A DNA stretch of 43,451 nucleotides from Bacilli bacterium (lineage in GTDB: Bacteria; Bacillota_I; Bacilli_A; RF39; UBA660), in the NCBI GenBank assembly GCA_017511375.1, contig JAFWKJ010000010.1:1-43451 (forward strand), written 5' to 3'. The notes under the pieces were generated by a model. The model saw only the letters and a program-made list of their open reading frames with translations. It was not told where the DNA came from and did no database searches. A program made the translations under genes and the position numbers. Positions 7,055 through 35,864 of this stretch are shown piece by piece. Within the stretch, counting starts at the first letter, position 1, and the number at the start of each line of letters is the position of its first letter.

Positions 7055-8104
7055 ATGGATAATAAGAGATTTGATGAAATTAAAAAATCTTTAGAGGAAG
7101 ATCTAAAGGATGGTTTGGATTTAAAAGTATTAGAAGACCTACGTGTAAAATATTTGGGGAAGAAAGGTTTTATTACAGAGTTAAATAGTGAAATTAAAAA
7201 TGTTCCAAATGAAGAAAAGAAAGAATTTGGAATGAAGGTTAATGAACTTAGAAATAGATTTAATGATTTCTATGAATCTGTAAAAGAAAAATTAGATCAA
7301 GAAGCTTTAAATAAAAGATTAGAAAAAGAAGCTATTGATATTAGTTTACCTGCAACTGTTGTTCCTGTAGGAGCTCCTCATATTTTAGAAAAAGTCATTG
7401 AAGAGGTAGAAGAAGTTTTCCTATCTATGGGCTACGATGTAGTAGATGGACCTGAAATAGAAGAAGATAAATATAATTTTGAAATGTTAAATATTCCAAA
7501 GGGACATCCTGCAAGAGACGCACAAGATACGTTCTATATAGAAGGAGAAGAAATCTTACTTCGTAGTCAAACTTCTCCTGTACAAGTACGTACGATGTTA
7601 AAGGGAGAGGGAAAAGTTCCTATTCGTATGATTTGTCCAGGAAAGACTTATAGAAGAGATGATGATGATGCAAGTCATTCTCATCAATTTATGCAAATTG
7701 AAGGATTGCTTGTTGATAAAAATATTAGTTTAAGTGATTTAAAAGGGACTATGGATGTTTTATTCAAACGTCTATTTGGAAAAGATGTAGAAACTCGTTT
7801 TAGACCTAGTTATTATCAATTTACAGAACCTTCTGTTGAAGTAGATATTACTTGTGTGAACTGTCACGGAAAAGGGTGTAACGTATGTAAGCATACAGGA
7901 TGGGTTACGGTTGTAGGTGCAGGAGTCGTTCATCCTAATGTACTTCGTATGAGTGGATATGATCCAGAAGTATGGAGTGGATTTGCTTTCGGTTTTGGAG
8001 CTGAAAGACTTGCGATGATGAAATATGACATCAATGATATTAGAACTTTCTATAATGCAGATTTAAGAGAGGCAAAAGTATTTGATAGGGAGGATGAGGA
8101 ATAA
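7055..8104 (+). CDS. pheS: Phenylalanine-tRNA ligase alpha subunit
   Basis: The catalytic subunit of the heterotetrameric class II enzyme that charges tRNA-Phe. 349 residues, full length. Order: an N-terminal coiled coil that binds tRNA (1-90), motif 2 (IRMICPGKTYRRDDDDASHSH, shown here as GKTYRRDDDDASHSHQF), the Phe-pocket region FRPSYYQFTEPSVEVDI, a CxxC...CxxC set (CVNCHGKGCNVCKHTGW) present in many PheS, and motif 3 FGFGAERLAMMKYDINDIR. Its TAA shares one base with the pheT start, so the two subunits are translationally coupled. Confidence 0.97.
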   Translation: MDNKRFDEIKKSLEEDLKDGLDLKVLEDLRVKYLGKKGFITELNSEIKNVPNEEKKEFGMKVNELRNRFNDFYESVKEKLDQEALNKRLEKEAIDISLPATVVPVGAPHILEKVIEEVEEVFLSMGYDVVDGPEIEEDKYNFEMLNIPKGHPARDAQDTFYIEGEEILLRSQTSPVQVRTMLKGEGKVPIRMICPGKTYRRDDDDASHSHQFMQIEGLLVDKNISLSDLKGTMDVLFKRLFGKDVETRFRPSYYQFTEPSVEVDITCVNCHGKGCNVCKHTGWVTVVGAGVVHPNVLRMSGYDPEVWSGFAFGFGAERLAMMKYDINDIRTFYNADLREAKVFDREDEE

Positions 8105-10467
8105 TGATTAGTTTAAATTGGGTAGGAGACTACATTGATATAAAAGATCAAGATGTTCATGAATTGGCGGCTAAGATTACCAAAGCAGGTATCAATATAG
8201 AGGCCGTTGTTTCTCATCAAATCAAAGGATTGGTTATTGGTGAGATTGAAAAGGTTGAAGATCATCCAGATAGTGATCATTTACATGTTTGTAGAGTTAA
8301 TATAGGAAAGGAAGTTTTACAAATTGTTTGTGGAGCTCCTAATGTTCGTGATGGATTAAAAGTTATTGTCGCAACAGTAGGTACCATTCTTCCTGGAGAC
8401 TTTGAAATTAAAAAGAGTAAAATTCGTGGAGTAGATTCTTGTGGTATGATTTGTGCTTTATTTGAATTAGGACTTGAAGAAAAAAATGATGAGACTTATG
8501 CAAAAGGAATTGCTGAATTAGATGATGAGGCACCTATCGGAGAAGAGCCACTTGCTTATCTAGGACTTGATGACACTTTATATGATTTAGATGTTCATAA
8601 ACATCGTAATAATGATTGTTATTATCATATTGGATTTGCTTATGAAATTGCATGTATATTAAATAGAAAAGTTACTTTACCAGACTTAGAGTTTAAGACT
8701 AGTAAAGATAAAATTCAATTTGATTTAAAGATTGATACTCCTAAATGTAGTTATTATGCCGCAAGAGAAGTAAGAAATGTAAAGATAGGAGAAAGCCCTG
8801 ATTTTATCAAGAAGAGATTACTTGCTGCAGGAATGAGACCTATAAATAATGTGGTAGATATTTCCAATTATGTTATGTTAGAGTTTGGACAACCACTTCA
8901 TTTCTTTGATAAAGATAAATTAGGAGACAAAATTGTCGTTCGTGATGCGAAAGATAAAGAAGAAATTACTACCTTGGATGGAAAGGTTCGTAAACTTGAT
9001 TCAAAAGATATCGTTATTACAGATGGAGAAAAAAGTGTTTGTATTGCGGGAGTTATGGGAGGAGAAAATACAGAAGTTGATGAAAATACGAAAAATATTT
9101 TAATTGAATCTGCTATTTTTGATCCTGTATCTATTCGTTATACTTCTCGTAAGTTAGAACTTCCAAGTGAAGCTTCTATTCGCTATGGAAAAGGACTATC
9201 TTATGAATATACCGAAATGGCTAGTAAAAGAGCTTGTCATTTGCTTGAAAAGTATGCAGGAGCTGAAGTATTAGATGGTGTTGTGGTAGTAGACCACGAA
9301 GATCATACGGAAAAAGTATTAACATTTAAACCAGAAGAAGTGGATTCTATTTTAGGAATTACAATTTCAGAAGAAGATATGAAACATGAACTTGAACGAT
9401 TAGATTTCCCATATGAAATAAATAAGGGAGAGTTCAAAGTAACGGTTCCAAGAAGAAGATTAGATATTGATCCTAATGTCAATGATATTGCAGAAGAAAT
9501 TGGTAGACTTTATGGATATAATAATTTGGTGTCTTCTCTTCCTTCTATTCCTGTGCGTAGAGGAGAATATATTGGAGATGTTAAATATCGTAAGATTGTT
9601 TCTAAGAGACTTCGTAGTTTAGGTTTAACAGAAGTAAAAACTTATACATTAGTAAGTCCTGAAATGGCTTCTAAATTCCAATATGAAGAGAAAAAACAAG
9701 TTGTTTTACCTAATCCTATGAGTTTGGATAAGAGTGTTGTAAGAACGACTTTAATTCCATCTTTATATAATGTGTATGAATACAATGCAGCACGTGGAAT
9801 TAAGGATGTATCTATCTATGAAATTGCGAAAACTTATGATAGTGAGTATCAAGAAGTAAGTAAAATTTGTGGTTTAATGACTGGAAATTATGTCTTGAAT
9901 GATTGGAAAGGAAATCAAACCATTGATTTCTATGTGGTAAAAGGCGTTGTAGAAAATGTTCTTCAATACATGGGTTATGAAAATAGATACTCTTTTGTAC
10001 GTAGTAGTTGTAGTGATCTACATCCTGGAGTACAAGCTTATATTGTATTAGATGGAAAAAATATAGGAATTATTGGTAAAGTTCATCCCTCTATTACGAA
10101 AAAGGATATCTTCGTATTTGAGATGGATTTGAATCGTATTTTTGGTAGAACTAATAAACTAAAATATAAAGAAGCTTATAAATATCCAAGTATTCAAAAA
10201 GATATGGCTTTCCTTATGGATAAGAATATTGATGTTTCTGAAATCATTAGAACGATTAAGAAGACAGCTAATAATACCTTACAAGATGTTCGTGTGTTTG
10301 ATGTTTATGAAGGAGATAATATTTCTAAAGATCAAAAGAGTGTAGCCTTTAATCTATTATTTAATGGAATTGATCATACTTTAACAGATGAAGAAGTTAT
10401 GATTGTCTTTAACAAGGTAATTGACAAAGTTGTGTCAACTCACCATGCAGAATTAAGAGATAAGTAG
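8104..10467 (+). CDS. pheT: Phenylalanine-tRNA ligase beta subunit
   Basis: The structural and editing subunit that partners PheS. 787 residues, as expected. Visible domains: EMAP-II/OB-fold tRNA-binding domain (about 40-150, with VEDHPDSDHLHVCRVNIG), the B3/B4 editing domain (MRPINNVVDISNYVMLEFGQ, then VCIAGVMGGENTEV), B5 (KVTVPRRRLDIDPNVNDIAE), a catalytic-like core, and the C-terminal FDX-ACB domain (YPSIQKDMAFLMD to the end). It overlaps pheS by one base. The stop codon sits in the loop of a terminator. Confidence 0.97.
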   Translation: MISLNWVGDYIDIKDQDVHELAAKITKAGINIEAVVSHQIKGLVIGEIEKVEDHPDSDHLHVCRVNIGKEVLQIVCGAPNVRDGLKVIVATVGTILPGDFEIKKSKIRGVDSCGMICALFELGLEEKNDETYAKGIAELDDEAPIGEEPLAYLGLDDTLYDLDVHKHRNNDCYYHIGFAYEIACILNRKVTLPDLEFKTSKDKIQFDLKIDTPKCSYYAAREVRNVKIGESPDFIKKRLLAAGMRPINNVVDISNYVMLEFGQPLHFFDKDKLGDKIVVRDAKDKEEITTLDGKVRKLDSKDIVITDGEKSVCIAGVMGGENTEVDENTKNILIESAIFDPVSIRYTSRKLELPSEASIRYGKGLSYEYTEMASKRACHLLEKYAGAEVLDGVVVVDHEDHTEKVLTFKPEEVDSILGITISEEDMKHELERLDFPYEINKGEFKVTVPRRRLDIDPNVNDIAEEIGRLYGYNNLVSSLPSIPVRRGEYIGDVKYRKIVSKRLRSLGLTEVKTYTLVSPEMASKFQYEEKKQVVLPNPMSLDKSVVRTTLIPSLYNVYEYNAARGIKDVSIYEIAKTYDSEYQEVSKICGLMTGNYVLNDWKGNQTIDFYVVKGVVENVLQYMGYENRYSFVRSSCSDLHPGVQAYIVLDGKNIGIIGKVHPSITKKDIFVFEMDLNRIFGRTNKLKYKEAYKYPSIQKDMAFLMDKNIDVSEIIRTIKKTANNTLQDVRVFDVYEGDNISKDQKSVAFNLLFNGIDHTLTDEEVMIVFNKVIDKVVSTHHAELRDK

Positions 10468-10483: not shown

Positions 10484-10523
10484 ATGTTACTCTTTTGATA
10501 GAAATAAAATAGGAGTGTGAATT

Positions 10524-12248
10524 ATGGAGAATTCAGAAAACAAAGAAATTGAAACAAATAACGTTCAGGAAACTCTGTCAGAAGTTTCCAATGAAGATGT
10601 AACCAATCAAGAAAATCCTTCTGAAGTTGTTTCTGAGAGTGTTGAACAACCGGCAACAACACCAGTAGAGAACAGCACAAATGAAACAAAACCTCAAAAG
10701 AAAAAAGGAAAAGGCGGACTTGTTGTTCTTGTACTGCTTTTGTTTGTTGCCTTATTGGTAGCTATCTTTGTTCCTTCTTTCTTAAATAAAGAGGGACAAC
10801 CACAAACAATTGAAACTGATGCTAATGAGGTAAAATCAGCATATCGTTTGAGTGGGAATGGTTTAGAAGACTTTGACCTATATTTTTTACAATTAGAAAA
10901 TAAAGAGGTTAACAAGGTGTATAGTCCTTTATCTATTAAGTATGTATTAGCTATGCTTAATGAAGGTACAGCTGGAACTTCTCATGCACAAATCAAAGGG
11001 GTTATTGGAGATTATAAAGCTAAAAAATATAACAACAATGATCATATGAGTTTTGCGAATGCTATGTATATTAAAGATATTTATAAAAATGCTATTAAAG
11101 AAGAATATACAAAACAGTTAAAAGAAAAATATGGGGCAGAAGTAACAGTAGATCCATTTACTAGTCCTGATCCAATTAATAACTGGATTAGTGATAAAAC
11201 ATTTCATTTAATTACTAATATGTTAACAGAACCAATTAATGAATATGATTTCTTCCTAGTAAATGCTTTAGCAATTGATATGAACTGGGTTAATCAATTG
11301 CAATGTGAACAAACTGAATCACGTAGTCAAGGTAAAGTAAGTTGTAAAGATTATAGTGTTAAATATATTCATGAAAACTATTCGGATTATGTAAGAGAAT
11401 TAATGTCTAACGATGAATATGATGAAATAGATTTTAATGGTGGTAAGGTAAAATCGTTAGCAATTGGAGCAAGTATTAATAATTATGATATTATTAAGGA
11501 TCTTGGAGAAGAGAATATTCGTAAAACAGTAGGTGAAAAGTTACAAGAATACATCGATGCTGGTGGAGAAATGTGCGGAAATACTTATGATGAATATATG
11601 GATAATTATATTAAAACGCTAGGAGAAAACTATAAGCAAGTTGATTATTCTACGGATTTCTCTCTATATGATGGTTCAGATGTAAAAGCATTTGCTAAAG
11701 ATCTTCAAACGTATGATGGGGTTACTTTACAATATGTAGCAATCATGCCAAAAGAAGCATCATTAGAATCTTATATCAAAGAATTAGATGTTAAGAGTGT
11801 TAATAATGTAATTAAAGAATTAAAGGATATTAAGTTAGAAAACTTTAAAGAAGGTGTAGTTACAAAGATTAAAGGACATATACCTGTATTTAATTATGAT
11901 TACGAATTAGATTTGATGAATGATTTGAAAAAATTGGGTATAAAGGATGTATTTAGTGCAGAAGATGCAAATTTATCTAATATGATTAAAACCAAAGGTG
12001 GAGAATTCATTGCAAAAGCTGATCATAAAGCAGTAATTGAATTTTCAAATGATGGAATTAAAGCTGCGGCTGTCACATTAGGTGGAGGAAAAGGTGCTGC
12101 CGGTTGTCCTATATTTGATTATGAATATGATGTTCCGGTAGAAACAATTGATATTACGTTTGATAAGCCATATCTATATTTAATTAGAGATAAAGACACA
12201 GGAGAGGTATGGTTTGTTGGAACGGTTTATGAACCTACAAAAAAATAA
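10524..12248 (+). CDS. Membrane-anchored serpin
   Basis: A serine-protease-inhibitor fold protein of 574 residues, larger than typical serpins (about 380-420). An acidic cytoplasmic tail (1-54), a basic patch (KPQKKKGKGG) and one membrane helix (about 65-88, LVVLVLLLFVALLVAIFVPS) precede an extracytoplasmic serpin domain (about 105-574). Family marks: NKVYSPLSIKYVLAMLNEGTAG, here within residues 128-150; NNWISDKT; FLVNALAIDMNW; the hinge NDGIKAAAVT with small residues at P12-P9; and the C-terminal FDKPYLYLIRDKDTGEVWFVG. The Ala-rich hinge favours an inhibitory serpin, which traps proteases by loop insertion. The reactive loop is long and Gly-rich (GGGKGAAGC), and its target cannot be predicted. 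Single-gene unit with AGGAG site; it converges on sspI. Confidence 0.88.
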   Translation: MENSENKEIETNNVQETLSEVSNEDVTNQENPSEVVSESVEQPATTPVENSTNETKPQKKKGKGGLVVLVLLLFVALLVAIFVPSFLNKEGQPQTIETDANEVKSAYRLSGNGLEDFDLYFLQLENKEVNKVYSPLSIKYVLAMLNEGTAGTSHAQIKGVIGDYKAKKYNNNDHMSFANAMYIKDIYKNAIKEEYTKQLKEKYGAEVTVDPFTSPDPINNWISDKTFHLITNMLTEPINEYDFFLVNALAIDMNWVNQLQCEQTESRSQGKVSCKDYSVKYIHENYSDYVRELMSNDEYDEIDFNGGKVKSLAIGASINNYDIIKDLGEENIRKTVGEKLQEYIDAGGEMCGNTYDEYMDNYIKTLGENYKQVDYSTDFSLYDGSDVKAFAKDLQTYDGVTLQYVAIMPKEASLESYIKELDVKSVNNVIKELKDIKLENFKEGVVTKIKGHIPVFNYDYELDLMNDLKKLGIKDVFSAEDANLSNMIKTKGGEFIAKADHKAVIEFSNDGIKAAAVTLGGGKGAAGCPIFDYEYDVPVETIDITFDKPYLYLIRDKDTGEVWFVGTVYEPTKK

Positions 12249-12260
12249 TCTAATAAAAAA

Positions 12261-12290
12261 GACTAGATCGTTTGATCTAGTCCTTTTTTT
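12261..12290. terminator. Bidirectional terminator between the serpin gene and sspI
   Basis: Perfect stem GACTAGATC (12261-12269) with GATCTAGTC (12274-12282), T's on the right and A's on the left, so it works for both converging genes. The sspI stop codon is inside the stem. Confidence 0.9.
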
Positions 12291-12490
12291 ACTCTTTTTC
12301 TTATAATTTCAATCATTTCATTTTTAAATTCTTGATTTGCATTTTCCCAGACAAGTTCAAAAAATACTCCCAATCCTGGTAGGGTATATTCATCTTGTTC
12401 TTTTACTGCTTCATCGATGGCTCTTTTTAAAGTATGAAAATCATCTCCTTGAAAGTTATTGATAATATGATGTCTAATATTTGTATCCAT
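12263..12490 (-). CDS. sspI: Small acid-soluble spore protein, SspI family
   Basis: A minor SASP of the forespore core, made late in sporulation in Bacillus. The 75 residues match the family in size and key motifs: the start MDTNIRHHIINNFQG (Bacillus MDLNLRHAVI-type), then the hallmark TLPGLGVFFELVWENAN, then a charged helical end. The gene lies alone on the minus strand with a perfect AGGAGG site and a sporulation-type promoter candidate. It is one of two signs in the window that the lineage makes endospores. Confidence 0.85.
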   Translation of the reverse strand: MDTNIRHHIINNFQGDDFHTLKRAIDEAVKEQDEYTLPGLGVFFELVWENANQEFKNEMIEIIRKRVKKGLDQTI

Positions 12491-12604: not shown

Positions 12605-13474
12605 ATGAAGAAAAGAGTTAAGAAAAGTGAAATTGAAATCGCAAAAAAATCCTCTAGGATTATGTTCTTATTGTCTTTTATCTTACTAGTTTTCTTATTT
12701 GTGGGATTTGGACTTATTTATGTTTTAGAAATTGATGTATCTCCTTATGTTTCTTTTTCTAAAGAAAAAAGTACATCCTCTAAGACCCAAAAGATAATTA
12801 AAAAAGGTGTGATTCTTGATCCTACTCCTATTTCAGTTGAGGTAGATATCACGGATAGTAATGTGCAAAAGTACTACAATATTGTGAAAGTAACAAATCA
12901 AGATGTTTGCGTGGAAGGAACTTATCGTGAAAAGAAACATGTCGATGTAAAAGATTTATCTGAAAAGTGCAAATTTTCTTTAGCCAGCAAAATATATGAA
13001 AAAAATATTGAACAAGGTTTAGATGGTAGACTTTTTGTTTCAGAAGAAGATGTAAAGAGTGCTTATGATGGACTTTTTGGTCATAATACCTATGAACCGC
13101 AAGATTCTATTCCTTGCTTATATAATACAAGTTTTATTTATCATGGGGATTATTATTTTACTGATAAAGTTGCGACAGAAGAAGGGACTTCCCTACAATC
13201 TTTTGAGAAGATTCTTAACGCCAGACGTGTGGGGGATCAATTAGATATTACAACTGCCGTGGTTTTTTATGAACGCGTTATATCTATTTTGTGTAAAGAT
13301 AGTCGATGTGAAAGTACTTTGGAAACAGTAAAACAGGGTACGGATTATGATGATGATTATTATAATTTATATGTTGATTATCACAAAGATTCTTTATATC
13401 AATATACTTATCATTTTGAAATGGATGATGCAGGTTTTTACCGCTATATAGGATATGATAGGACTAATGAATAA
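12605..13474 (+). CDS. Single-pass membrane protein, unknown function
   Basis: Not recognised. The ATG at 12605 follows AGAGGTGT and is preferred over an upstream in-frame ATG at 12554 that lacks a site. 289 residues: a basic cytoplasmic start (KKRVKKSEIEIAKK), one membrane helix (about 19-44) and an extracytoplasmic domain of about 240 residues. The domain holds several Cys (in VCVEGTY, EKCKF, SIPCLYN and LCKDSRCES) that could form disulfides. It is rich in Tyr/Asp/His near the end. A promoter-like TTGAGA-N17-TAAATT lies upstream. It has the same layout as the product at 24757-25656 but no clear sequence match. Confidence 0.65.
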   Translation: MKKRVKKSEIEIAKKSSRIMFLLSFILLVFLFVGFGLIYVLEIDVSPYVSFSKEKSTSSKTQKIIKKGVILDPTPISVEVDITDSNVQKYYNIVKVTNQDVCVEGTYREKKHVDVKDLSEKCKFSLASKIYEKNIEQGLDGRLFVSEEDVKSAYDGLFGHNTYEPQDSIPCLYNTSFIYHGDYYFTDKVATEEGTSLQSFEKILNARRVGDQLDITTAVVFYERVISILCKDSRCESTLETVKQGTDYDDDYYNLYVDYHKDSLYQYTYHFEMDDAGFYRYIGYDRTNE

Positions 13475-29124: not shown

Positions 29125-30993
29125 ATGAGAATTAGAAATAGAAGGAAAATTGTTAGAATTGGCCATGAGAAACGTAATCTATTTATTTTTCTTCTTTTTG
29201 TGTTCTTCATGGGAATTGGTTATTCTATCATTGGAACGGATGTAGAAATTGGGGGAAGTATAATTGTTAAAAAACCAAAAGAGCCAACGATTAGATACTC
29301 TTATTCTTCTGATAAAAGAGCCTTTAAAAGTGATACTTATAGGGAATATATCAAAATAATCAATTTAAGTGATCGGATTAGTCCTCCGACTGGTTCTATT
29401 GCTAGTTGGGATATTAGTTCATCTCAAGATGGTAGTGTTATGGCCTATATTAAAAAAAATGCAACTAATAGCAGTTATTATGACTTATATATTCAAGGAG
29501 ATGGGCATCTTTATGCCAATCAGTATTGTGATTATATGTTTGCTAATTTAAAAGGTTTGGATGCTATCAATAATCTTGATGTATTAGATACTTCTAAAGT
29601 TACCAGAATGAAGTATATGTTTTCTCAAACTGGTTATGATAGTTCATCTTTTAAATTAGATTTAGGAAATAATTTTGACACAAAGAATGTAACTGATATG
29701 TCTTATATGTTTTTTCAAACTGGTGAAAATAGTACTTCCTTTACTCTAAACTTGGGAAGCAAATTTAATACAATTAAAGTTACGGATATGAGTGATATGT
29801 TTGCTTATGCTGGATATCAAAGTCCCATTTTCACCTTAGATTTAGGAAACCTTTTTGATACGCGTAACGTTACAAATATGGGATATATGTTTGCTTTTAC
29901 AGGGATGAATAGCACAAGATTTGAATTGAAATTAGGAAACAACTTTGATACTAGTAAAGTAACTAATATGAATACTATGTTTATCAATGTTGGTCGTAGT
30001 AATTCTAATTTTAAATTTGATTTGGGTGATAAGTTTAACACAAGCCTTGTTACTAATATGTCATTTATGTTTTCTTATATGGGTTATAATAATAATTCAT
30101 TTAAACTAGATATAGGAACACTTTCTTTTGATTCTGTTCAATACCGTGATACTGTTTTTGGTGGCTTTAAAACTACAAATAAGGTAATTGTTAAAGATAG
30201 TGCTGCAAAGAGTTGGGTGTTAAATAATGGTGGAAATAGTAATCTGACAAATTCTAATGTATTTCTGAAAACGGATTATTATATGCTGGATGCAAGTTAT
30301 GAATATGATGATTCTTATTTTAGAGATAACTATCGTTTAGAAATCAAAACGATTACTTTTAACAATTCTATTAATCCCCCAAGTGGATATATTGATTCAT
30401 GGGATATTAGTGTTGGGCATTGTGGTGGTGTAATGGCTTATGTTGTTCCAAATTCATTGACTCCTTCGATGTATGATTTACATATACAGGGAGACGGACG
30501 TATTTATGCAAATACGGATAGTAGTTATTGGTTTTCAAGACTTTATTATGTTGAGGCTATAAATAATATAAACGTGTTGAATACTTCACTAACGGTGAAT
30601 ATGTCTCATATGTTTGATGGTATTGGTTCGGCAGGAGACGCGACCTCGTTTTCTATGGATATTAATTTTGATACAAGTCATGTGACGGACATGTCTTATA
30701 TGTTCCAAGATTTTGAAACGGGAGAGATAAGTTTTACGTTTGGAGACAAGTTTGATACTAGTAATGTAACGGATATGGAAGGAATGTTCTGTTATGCTGC
30801 ATATATTATTGGTACACGAATTGAGGCAGATTTATCATCCTTTACTTTCAATGCCACATCATATTACAATATGTTTGGAGGATGGCAAGCAAATTATAAA
30901 ATCTATGTAAATGATAGCACTGCAAGGGATTGGATCCTTAACAATAGTGACAATAGCGATTTGACAACATCTAATGTATTAATTAAAACTTAA
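29125..30993 (+). CDS. BspA-type (DUF285) repeat surface protein
   Basis: 622 residues: a basic start, one membrane anchor or signal segment (about 17-33, LFIFLLFVFFMGIGYSIIG), then a large exported part. Motifs of the type FDTxxVTDMSYMF recur every 30 residues (LDTSKVTRMKYMF, FDTKNVTDMSYMF, FDTRNVTNMGYMF, FNTSLVTNMSFMF), which is the DUF285/BspA leucine-rich-like repeat. The protein is a duplication: each half starts with a SWDIS...YDL-IQGDG module, runs into repeats and closes with a WxLNN...SNxxxKT element. No LPxTG or other C-terminal anchor is seen. Such proteins bind host or bacterial partners or form surface scaffolds. The start site has only a weak GGGAA site. Confidence 0.85.
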   Translation: MRIRNRRKIVRIGHEKRNLFIFLLFVFFMGIGYSIIGTDVEIGGSIIVKKPKEPTIRYSYSSDKRAFKSDTYREYIKIINLSDRISPPTGSIASWDISSSQDGSVMAYIKKNATNSSYYDLYIQGDGHLYANQYCDYMFANLKGLDAINNLDVLDTSKVTRMKYMFSQTGYDSSSFKLDLGNNFDTKNVTDMSYMFFQTGENSTSFTLNLGSKFNTIKVTDMSDMFAYAGYQSPIFTLDLGNLFDTRNVTNMGYMFAFTGMNSTRFELKLGNNFDTSKVTNMNTMFINVGRSNSNFKFDLGDKFNTSLVTNMSFMFSYMGYNNNSFKLDIGTLSFDSVQYRDTVFGGFKTTNKVIVKDSAAKSWVLNNGGNSNLTNSNVFLKTDYYMLDASYEYDDSYFRDNYRLEIKTITFNNSINPPSGYIDSWDISVGHCGGVMAYVVPNSLTPSMYDLHIQGDGRIYANTDSSYWFSRLYYVEAINNINVLNTSLTVNMSHMFDGIGSAGDATSFSMDINFDTSHVTDMSYMFQDFETGEISFTFGDKFDTSNVTDMEGMFCYAAYIIGTRIEADLSSFTFNATSYYNMFGGWQANYKIYVNDSTARDWILNNSDNSDLTTSNVLIKT

Positions 30994-34112: not shown

Positions 34113-35864
34113 GTGGATGGTCTAGAAAATCTAAAAGAAATCATGCCTTTATTAAATCAGATTAATGATGCTTATAGTTTTCTAAATATTCCAGGATATG
34201 AATTTGAACAACTTGTTTTTGACGTTGTAAGTCATATGGATAATAAAAAATATAAGTTTATTGTCCATGAAATAAAAAATAGATTAGATCAAATCACATT
34301 ACAACGTCTTTCTGATTCTAAAGAGGCTATCTCTGTTATCAATGGCTTTATCAGTGATTGTTTGGAAAAAGATGAGTCTATCGATGAAATGGAATTGTTT
34401 AATCGATTAAATTCATTTTTTAAGAAGTATGATTATATACCTAGTGAAGAAGTGTTAACGTCTATTCTTGATCAAAATAAATCCTTCTTACGCTTAATAG
34501 AACGATTGGATAAAAAATATAATGATCCTGTATCAGAAAATGATTTTCAAGATGTTTTAAATAATCCTACTTTGATGCAAGCTTTAGAAAATTATGATAA
34601 GGTTTCCTTTGGAAAGCAAAAGGATTTATCTTTCGATGATGATGCTTTTTCTAGTGATAGTACTAGGGCTTATTTAAATGAAATTGGAAGGATAGATTTA
34701 CTTTCTGCTGAGGAAGAAAAAGAATTATTTCAAAAAGTAAAAGCAGGAGATCCTAAGGCGCGAGAAGATTTTATTAAAAGTAACTTACGATGGGTAGTAT
34801 CTGTTGCGAAGAGATATTTAAAACGAGGCCTTTCTTTAGATGATTTAATTGAAGAGGGAAATTTAGGCTTGTTGAGAGCCGTAAATGATTTTGACGTTGA
34901 TAAAGGTTATAAGTTTTCTACTTACTCTTATTTCTGGATTCGTCAATATATTTTGAGAGCTATTGGGAATACAGGAAAAAGTGTTAGAATTCCTATTCAT
35001 ACTTTAAGGGAAATAGATTTATTTAAAAAGGCAAGATCTTATTTATTTAATCATTTGGGGAAAGATCCCACTTTAGGAGAAATTGCGGAGAAAATGAATT
35101 GTTCTTTGGAAAAAGTAGCTTACTTAGAGGCAATGGAAAGAAAAACGGAAATTGTCAGTATTAATGAATTGATTCCTTCTGATGAAGCTGATACGGAACT
35201 TGAAAGTTTTATTCCAAGTGATGCTTTGACTCCAGAAGAAGTTGTTATTAATGCTTCTTTAAGAGAACAACTTTTACTTGCTTTTAAGGATGCCAAACTA
35301 ACTCCTAAAGAACAAGATGTTTTGATTTTACGATTTGGGTTAGATCGCGGTGTTGGTCGGAGACTAGAAGAGGTTGGAAAGATTGTTGGAGTAACACGAG
35401 AAAGAATTAGACAAATAGAGTATAAGGCTCTTAGAAAATTAAAAAAGCCTGCTTCTGCTAGAAGATTATTGCCATTTGCAGTTAATGAAAAAACGGCTGC
35501 TAAGAATGTGGGATTGGATATAAATAATGGTCTAAAATTTGTGGGACCTCTTGAAGATAAGAAAAGTCAAAGAAAAAAGACCATATATGATCATTTCTAT
35601 CATTCTAGAGAAGATGTTGATCTTATAGTATCTAGCCTTTCTGAAGAGGATCAATCTGTATTTCGTTTTGTAGAAGATCAGTATGAAAAGGGAGATAAAT
35701 TTGATAAAGATCAATATAATAAATTTTATAAGATAATTCGTCTTAGAATTCAAAAGAAATTAGAGTTCCTTGATGAGGAGAGAGAAAGACTAAAACTTGC
35801 AGAAGAAAATTCAGAAGATAGTAATAAAACACTTATGAAATTACCTGATAATAAAAAAGACTAG
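34113..35864 (+). CDS. rpoD: RNA polymerase primary sigma factor with a C-terminal extension
   Basis: Directs core polymerase to housekeeping promoters. The GTG at 34113 lies 7 bases after AGGAGG; an ATG two bases upstream is out of frame. 583 residues. A region 1.1-like helical N-domain (1-180) is followed by region 1.2 (STRAYLNEIGRIDLLSAEEE), regions 2.1-2.4 (NLRWVVSVAKRYLKRGLSLD and YKFSTYSYFWIRQYILRA), region 3 and region 4 (LTPKEQDVLILRFGL, EEVGKIVGVTRERIRQIEYK). Normal family members end just after KALRKLKK; here about 125 more residues follow (about 456-583). They include a helical module, SSLSEEDQSVFRFVEDQYEK then YNKFYKIIRLRIQKKLEFL, reminiscent of degenerate region 4 repeats. The last codons form a terminator with def. 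Confidence 0.95.
   Translation: MDGLENLKEIMPLLNQINDAYSFLNIPGYEFEQLVFDVVSHMDNKKYKFIVHEIKNRLDQITLQRLSDSKEAISVINGFISDCLEKDESIDEMELFNRLNSFFKKYDYIPSEEVLTSILDQNKSFLRLIERLDKKYNDPVSENDFQDVLNNPTLMQALENYDKVSFGKQKDLSFDDDAFSSDSTRAYLNEIGRIDLLSAEEEKELFQKVKAGDPKAREDFIKSNLRWVVSVAKRYLKRGLSLDDLIEEGNLGLLRAVNDFDVDKGYKFSTYSYFWIRQYILRAIGNTGKSVRIPIHTLREIDLFKKARSYLFNHLGKDPTLGEIAEKMNCSLEKVAYLEAMERKTEIVSINELIPSDEADTELESFIPSDALTPEEVVINASLREQLLLAFKDAKLTPKEQDVLILRFGLDRGVGRRLEEVGKIVGVTRERIRQIEYKALRKLKKPASARRLLPFAVNEKTAAKNVGLDINNGLKFVGPLEDKKSQRKKTIYDHFYHSREDVDLIVSSLSEEDQSVFRFVEDQYEKGDKFDKDQYNKFYKIIRLRIQKKLEFLDEERERLKLAEENSEDSNKTLMKLPDNKKD

Follow-up and report, generated by a model that had tools for sequence, protein, structure and literature searches.

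Does the long serpin gene carried by this Bacilli bacterium encode a working protease trap, and if so, what does the trap guard the cell against? The gene lies in a stretch of 43,451 nucleotides (positions 1 to 43,451 of contig JAFWKJ010000010.1, assembly GCA_017511375.1), and this whole stretch is called the window here. The features that bear on the answer are listed below, with residues numbered along the 574-aa protein.

10511 to 10515, forward strand: AGGAG, a ribosome-binding-site-like motif before the ATG, read from the sequence
10524 to 12248, forward strand: open reading frame of the predicted membrane-anchored serpin, 574 aa, ATG start (PF00079, E 1.3e-44)
10524 to 10688, forward strand: acidic tail, predicted cytoplasmic, residues 1-55 (14 Asp/Glu versus 1 Lys/Arg; disordered in the structure model)
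10716 to 10781, forward strand: predicted single transmembrane helix, about residues 65-86, after a Lys cluster, type II topology
11304 to 11306, forward strand: Cys261, which co-occurs with Cys274
11343 to 11345, forward strand: Cys274, which co-occurs with Cys261
11400 to 11639, forward strand: inserted subdomain, about residues 293-372 (from the alignment; model pLDDT mostly 86-98)
11574 to 11576, forward strand: Cys351, in the insert, predicted partner of Cys528 (from co-occurrence and joint changes)
12048 to 12077, forward strand: reactive-loop hinge NDGIKAAAVT, residues 509-518, P17-P8 by counting
12084 to 12095, forward strand: GG-x-G bait motif, residues 521-524, with hypervariable Lys523 (entropy 3.22 bits)
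12105 to 12107, forward strand: Cys528, in the reactive loop, P3' by counting, predicted partner of Cys351 (from co-occurrence and joint changes)
12114 to 12158, forward strand: conserved P'-side extension, residues 531-545 (FDYEYDVPVETIDIT; from the alignment of relatives)
12261 to 12282, forward strand: intrinsic-terminator-like stem-loop followed by a T run, past the serpin stop

The Pfam match to Serpin scores 153 bits (cut-off 27) and falls into two stretches split by the insert; the scan of the 574-aa ORF found no domain besides the serpin, hence no dockerin in the chain. With the same protein, phmmer matched 140 solved serpin sequences (e.g., neuroserpin, conserpin, and tengpin), and by sequence comparison the assignment is far above chance. 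A structure model built from an alignment of 82 ectodomains (A2) has a pLDDT of 90.7 and a pTM of 0.88. Structure comparison pairs it with serpins (Z up to 36.1, 324 residues at 2.0 Å), with miropin second best in Foldseek. The core is mostly above a pLDDT of 90 and the reactive loop below 50, residues 515-528 being disordered. The shutter and breach residues Ser134, Ser137, Asn247, Trp255, and His501, the equivalents of Ser53, Ser56, Asn186, Trp194, and His334, are kept in 81 to 83 of the 83 relatives. A sequence-only reading had called the gene a serpin and proposed structure prediction as a check on its sheet A fold and mobile loop; the Pfam match and the modelled fold bear out the assignment, and the check was passed in both respects. 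By domain match and model the protein is a genuine serpin, and protease inhibition is likely.

The Lys cluster precedes the helix, and under the positive-inside rule the side of a helix that bears such a cluster is cytoplasmic. The tail would thus lie in the cytoplasm, and the serpin domain should be extracellular (type II, N-in/C-out). The one-helix tether and acidic cytoplasmic tail described earlier both hold: the helix spans residues 65-82 in the model, and a helix-like hydrophobic stretch occurs in 83 of 83 non-redundant relatives. The refinement is that the tail is N-terminal.

The window's genome is 1.2 Mb in size, 70% complete, and contains three serpins: the window's own, a long paralogue 56% identical to it (G000:C15), and a short form in two frames (G000:C4). 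This short serpin (L001, 1357-2618) is seen as two overlapping ORFs in different frames where its relatives have one ORF; the split is a frameshift or an assembly error. Roughly two thirds of the genus has long-form serpins; class-wide they were found in 6 of 247 genomes, all from one bacterial family. A scan of one genome per species gave 167 relatives. The 80 whose records were examined are uncultured metagenome-assembled genomes, mostly labelled Bacilli and including Candidatus Onthousia faecavium; the Saccharibacteria and Clostridiales labels on some relatives are probably wrong assignments. Wherever a source is stated, it is the rumen, jejunum, ileum, rabbit, or another gut sample, which supports the gut setting proposed earlier.

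The gene order pheT-serpin-DUF45-rlmB is retained in several species of the genus and in only 6 of 80 contigs of the wider set of relatives. Since it is rarely kept beyond the genus, the serpin's neighbors give no functional lead. Several of them have features of their own. Just behind the serpin, a 75-aa ORF on the reverse strand (12263-12490) matches small acid-soluble spore protein I (PF14098, E 6.2e-20); sporulation, in this organism or in an ancestor, is therefore possible. Upstream, PheT (8104-10467) exists in divergent versions within the genus, identity being 67-86% in most species and 47% and 29-31% in others; the divergence suggests replacement by a foreign copy, and in G011 the divergent pheT still adjoins the serpin. 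PheT was dropped as a species marker for this reason. In relatives (L151-L154), single-helix proteins of about 265 aa, fast-evolving, with paired cysteines and in some cases duplicated, sit between pheT and the serpin. A 289-aa membrane protein with cysteines of its own lies downstream of the serpin in the window (12605-13474) and has no detectable similarity to them. Further along, a 622-aa surface-type protein (29125-30993) consists in part of DUF285 repeats (PF03382, E 6.9e-34), a family named from mycoplasmas.

The insert, of about 80 residues, is placed between s3C and s1B and is modelled as a beta hairpin (residues 300-319) followed by two helices (329-345 and 355-368). Across relatives, the span corresponding to residues 285-375 is 89-117 residues long, with a median of 97. 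The insert has no match in Pfam, and comparison with solved structures returned weak matches only (best E 0.015).

In the reactive loop, counting from P15 at Gly511 places P1 at Ala525, the variable residue x (Lys523) at P3, and Cys528 at P3'. If P1 is Ala525, the 14 residues from Gly511 give the same P15-P1 length as in SERPINA1. Measured against the hinge pattern ExGTEAAAA (P17-P9), P15 Gly and the Ala-rich P12-P9 segment are kept, whereas the residues at P17 (Asn), P14 (Ile), and P13 (Lys) differ. Ala514 is present in 83 and Ala516 in 81 of the 83 relatives, which supports the Ala-rich, inhibitory-type hinge of the earlier reading apart from those three positions. An inhibitory hinge requires an uncharged P14 (PMC6379291), and the Ile found here is uncharged and invariant.

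The segment GGGKGAAGC (residues 520-528) had been singled out as a long and unusual loop. It is unusual compared with serpins in general, but GG-x-G-[AS]-[AT] is the rule within its own subfamily, whose signature is shared by 83 non-redundant proteins of gut-associated Bacilli. The loop is indeed extended, but its extra length is on the P' side and not in the Gly-rich part. The segment that starts at P1' and stops just short of the DKPY motif is 21 residues long, against 7-12 for the same span in human inhibitory serpins (PMC6379291, table). The extension has the consensus FDYxYDVPVExIDxTF, with Pro538, Ile542, and Phe546 invariant, and is absent from the short serpins of the genus. Within the subfamily, Gly522 and Gly524 are near-invariant, with 1 and 2 changes on the tree, but position 523 between them is hypervariable, with 48 changes (rank 12 of 446 columns). 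A reading of AAGC in the loop as a lipobox was rejected, as there is no adjacent signal helix and the Cys is absent in over half of the relatives.

Which proteases would such a bait meet? Two readings stand about equal, and each is tentative. In the first, the serpin protects the cell against large secreted proteases, papain-like (C1) or subtilisin-like (S8), made by the bacterium itself or its kin; several of these bear a dockerin and adjoin a cadherin-like membrane protein. The window's own genome encodes three such enzymes of about 975-1491 aa, two S8 (one of them with a dockerin) and one C1, and cellulosome bacteria that have both serpins and proteases provide a precedent (PMC3573020). In four genomes (G004, G005, G025, and G028), the serpin's neighborhood includes a C1 gene with a dockerin at a distance of 9-13 kb, but pheST and frr intervene and the proximity may be no more than inherited gene order. 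By raw counts, a C1 or S8 gene occurs in 20 of 23 serpin-positive and 4 of 12 serpin-negative genomes (p 0.002). However, the association is unsupported under phylogenetic control (sigma-factor tree, three informative pairs); the earlier suggestion that the serpin acts on its own secreted proteases stays tentative. Two serpin-positive genomes, G018 and G030, have neither C1 nor S8. HtrA-type Trypsin_2 proteases occur in 35 of 35 genomes and so do not discriminate.

Two side observations belong here. At five loci (L151-L154 and L157), the gene for a cadherin-like or Ig-like protein comes after that of a large secreted C1 or S8 protease, in several cases one with a dockerin, and a surface protease module resembling the cohesin-dockerin type is possible. 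As for sigma factors, the window's RpoD-like protein (34113-35861) belongs to a set of divergent paralogues, several of them across the genus, with 8 matches in its own genome; a 367-aa sigma factor elsewhere, about 41% identical to it, looks like the primary one.

The second reading faces the host: the serpin could possibly trap digestive or inflammatory proteases of the gut (elastase-like ones, to judge by the small P1, Ala or Ser), as siropins and the Bifidobacterium serpin do. All relatives with a stated source come from animal guts, the counted P1 is Ala or Ser in 66 of 83, and x takes elastase-, chymotrypsin-, and trypsin-like side chains among them. Siropins inhibit neutrophil elastase and proteinase 3 (PMC5127057). 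On the other hand, many members come from the rumen, which lies upstream of pancreatic secretion, and most of the loop is strongly conserved across species from different hosts.

One pair of cysteines is predicted to connect the loop with the insert. Among the 83 non-redundant proteins, 39 have both Cys351 and Cys528, 43 have neither, and the 1 mismatch has a second Cys within its insert. When the tree is computed with the insert and loop columns removed, Cys351 and Cys528 change 22 and 21 times singly and their joint state 22 times, whereas in 100 shuffles of the labels the joint changes average 40.7 and never fall below 36. The two residues are thus gained and lost together, which predicts a disulfide stapling the loop to the insert. 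Cys261 and Cys274 form a second pair (33 both, 45 neither, 4 single) that is independent of the first. Two disulfides would explain these patterns most simply, with one of them fastening the loop to the insert. Extracytoplasmic neighbor proteins in the genus also carry paired cysteines. Just over half of the relatives are without the Cys351/Cys528 pair, so the staple would be inessential to the basic function. Two long serpins from other genera of the family (L223 and L224), which lie outside the alignment, have neither cysteine and thus neither support nor break the pairing.

It is unlikely that the co-occurrence reflects shared ancestry or a metal site instead of a disulfide between loop and insert. 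Many branches of the tree are weakly supported and only 4 pairs fall on well-supported (starred) branches; a search of 35 genomes of the genus for the disulfide catalysts Thioredoxin_4 (BdbD-like) and VKOR found neither. Yet all 4 of those pairs agree, the joint changes match the single ones and fall far under the shuffles, and the one mismatched sequence carries a second Cys in its insert.

Taking these lines together, the protein is probably a type II anchored, inhibitory-type serpin acting as a suicide trap at the cell surface, with a Cys351-Cys528 staple and with x setting its specificity. An extracellular protease would cut the exposed loop near GG-x-G/AA, the hinge side would then enter sheet A as a strand, leaving the acyl-enzyme trapped at the cell surface. 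The conserved shutter and breach, the Ala-rich hinge, the uncharged P14, and the correct P15-P1 length all point to this standard mechanism. In members with the Cys pair, the window's protein included, the predicted disulfide would tie the insert to the loop's P' side, fixing how the loop is presented and retaining the P' part after cleavage; the P side should still be able to insert, since cleavage separates the two halves. The hypervariable x, P3 by counting, may set specificity in one of two ways: P1 may be shifted to it, or it may be a subsite. If x were the true P1, the inserting segment would be two residues short. Serpins with loops shortened by one or two residues are less efficient, but their complexes stay stable and even doubled in stability (PMC6379291), and siropin 1 is cut at P3-P2 (PMC5127057); a short segment would therefore be tolerable in principle. 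The role is most likely protection of the cell surface against extracellular proteases. Against this explanation stand the departures of the hinge at P17, P14, and P13 and, for the staple, the disordered loop of the model, the failure to find the two catalysts in 35 genomes, and an anoxic habitat.

A competitor to the trap is a non-inhibitory protein whose loop, held by the insert, is structural or binds a ligand, so that the serpin would be a surface receptor, chaperone, or substrate. This is improbable. The unusually conserved loop flanks, the invariant P14 Ile, the long conserved P' side, and the probable staple would all suit it, but the shutter and breach residues and the Ala hinge are kept, while non-inhibitory serpins have less conserved hinges (PMC6379291), and the hypervariable position in the loop is bait-like. 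More doubtful still is a lineage-specific, disulfide-stapled lid subdomain that gates the trap through redox change or lid opening, with the one hypervariable bait residue evolving fast under pressure from extracellular proteases.

The bait loop of known serpins must move freely; a natural covalent link between loop and subdomain would mean that the P' side can be tied without loss of the trap, and would offer a simple control of serpin reactivity. A search of open-license papers found no natural disulfide between loop and insert and no helix-anchored bacterial serpin. The subfamily amounts to about 80 natural variants of one bait residue in an otherwise almost constant loop, some with the staple and some lacking it, so that the targets of bacterial serpin protection are directly testable. 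The insert, the P' extension, the co-evolving Cys pair, the hypervariable x, and the hinge departures are points that go beyond the sequence-only reading. A superfamily tree of 6,000 sequences left out sequences more than 25% longer than the median as well as all loop and insertion columns (PMC8233489), and this length filter would probably have excluded the long subfamily from the reference phylogeny.

Among known systems, the siropins of Eubacterium siraeum share the gut bacterial origin, the serpin fold, an Ala/Gly-rich hinge, and cleavage shifted from the counted P1 (P3-P2 and P6-P5), but they are proteins of 44-46 kDa, and the available part of their description mentions no anchor, insert, P' extension, or loop Cys. 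Clostridium thermocellum also makes dockerin proteases alongside its cellulosomal serpins; those serpins carry a dockerin, whereas the window's serpin is without one and is predicted to be anchored by its own helix. Miropin and the Bifidobacterium serpins (Group T) are likewise serpins of commensal or oral bacteria, and we know of none with an acidic tail and membrane helix, the insertion, or a loop staple. The long insertion of PAI-2 (SERPINB2) sits elsewhere, in the CD loop, and to our knowledge no disulfide joins its loop to an insert. PAI-2 does share a Gly-rich loop, GTEAAAGTGGVMTGRTGHGG (PMC6379291, table 1), but its P' length is ordinary. Closest to home, the short-form serpins of the genus (e.g., L123-L132) have a similar hinge, GTKAAAVT, but are 410-434 aa long, with Thr at P14, an ordinary P' length, and neither GG-x-G nor the extension. 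From the alignments, then, the features that distinguish the subfamily are the insert of about 80 residues, the longer P' side, and the GG-x-G bait with its hypervariable x.
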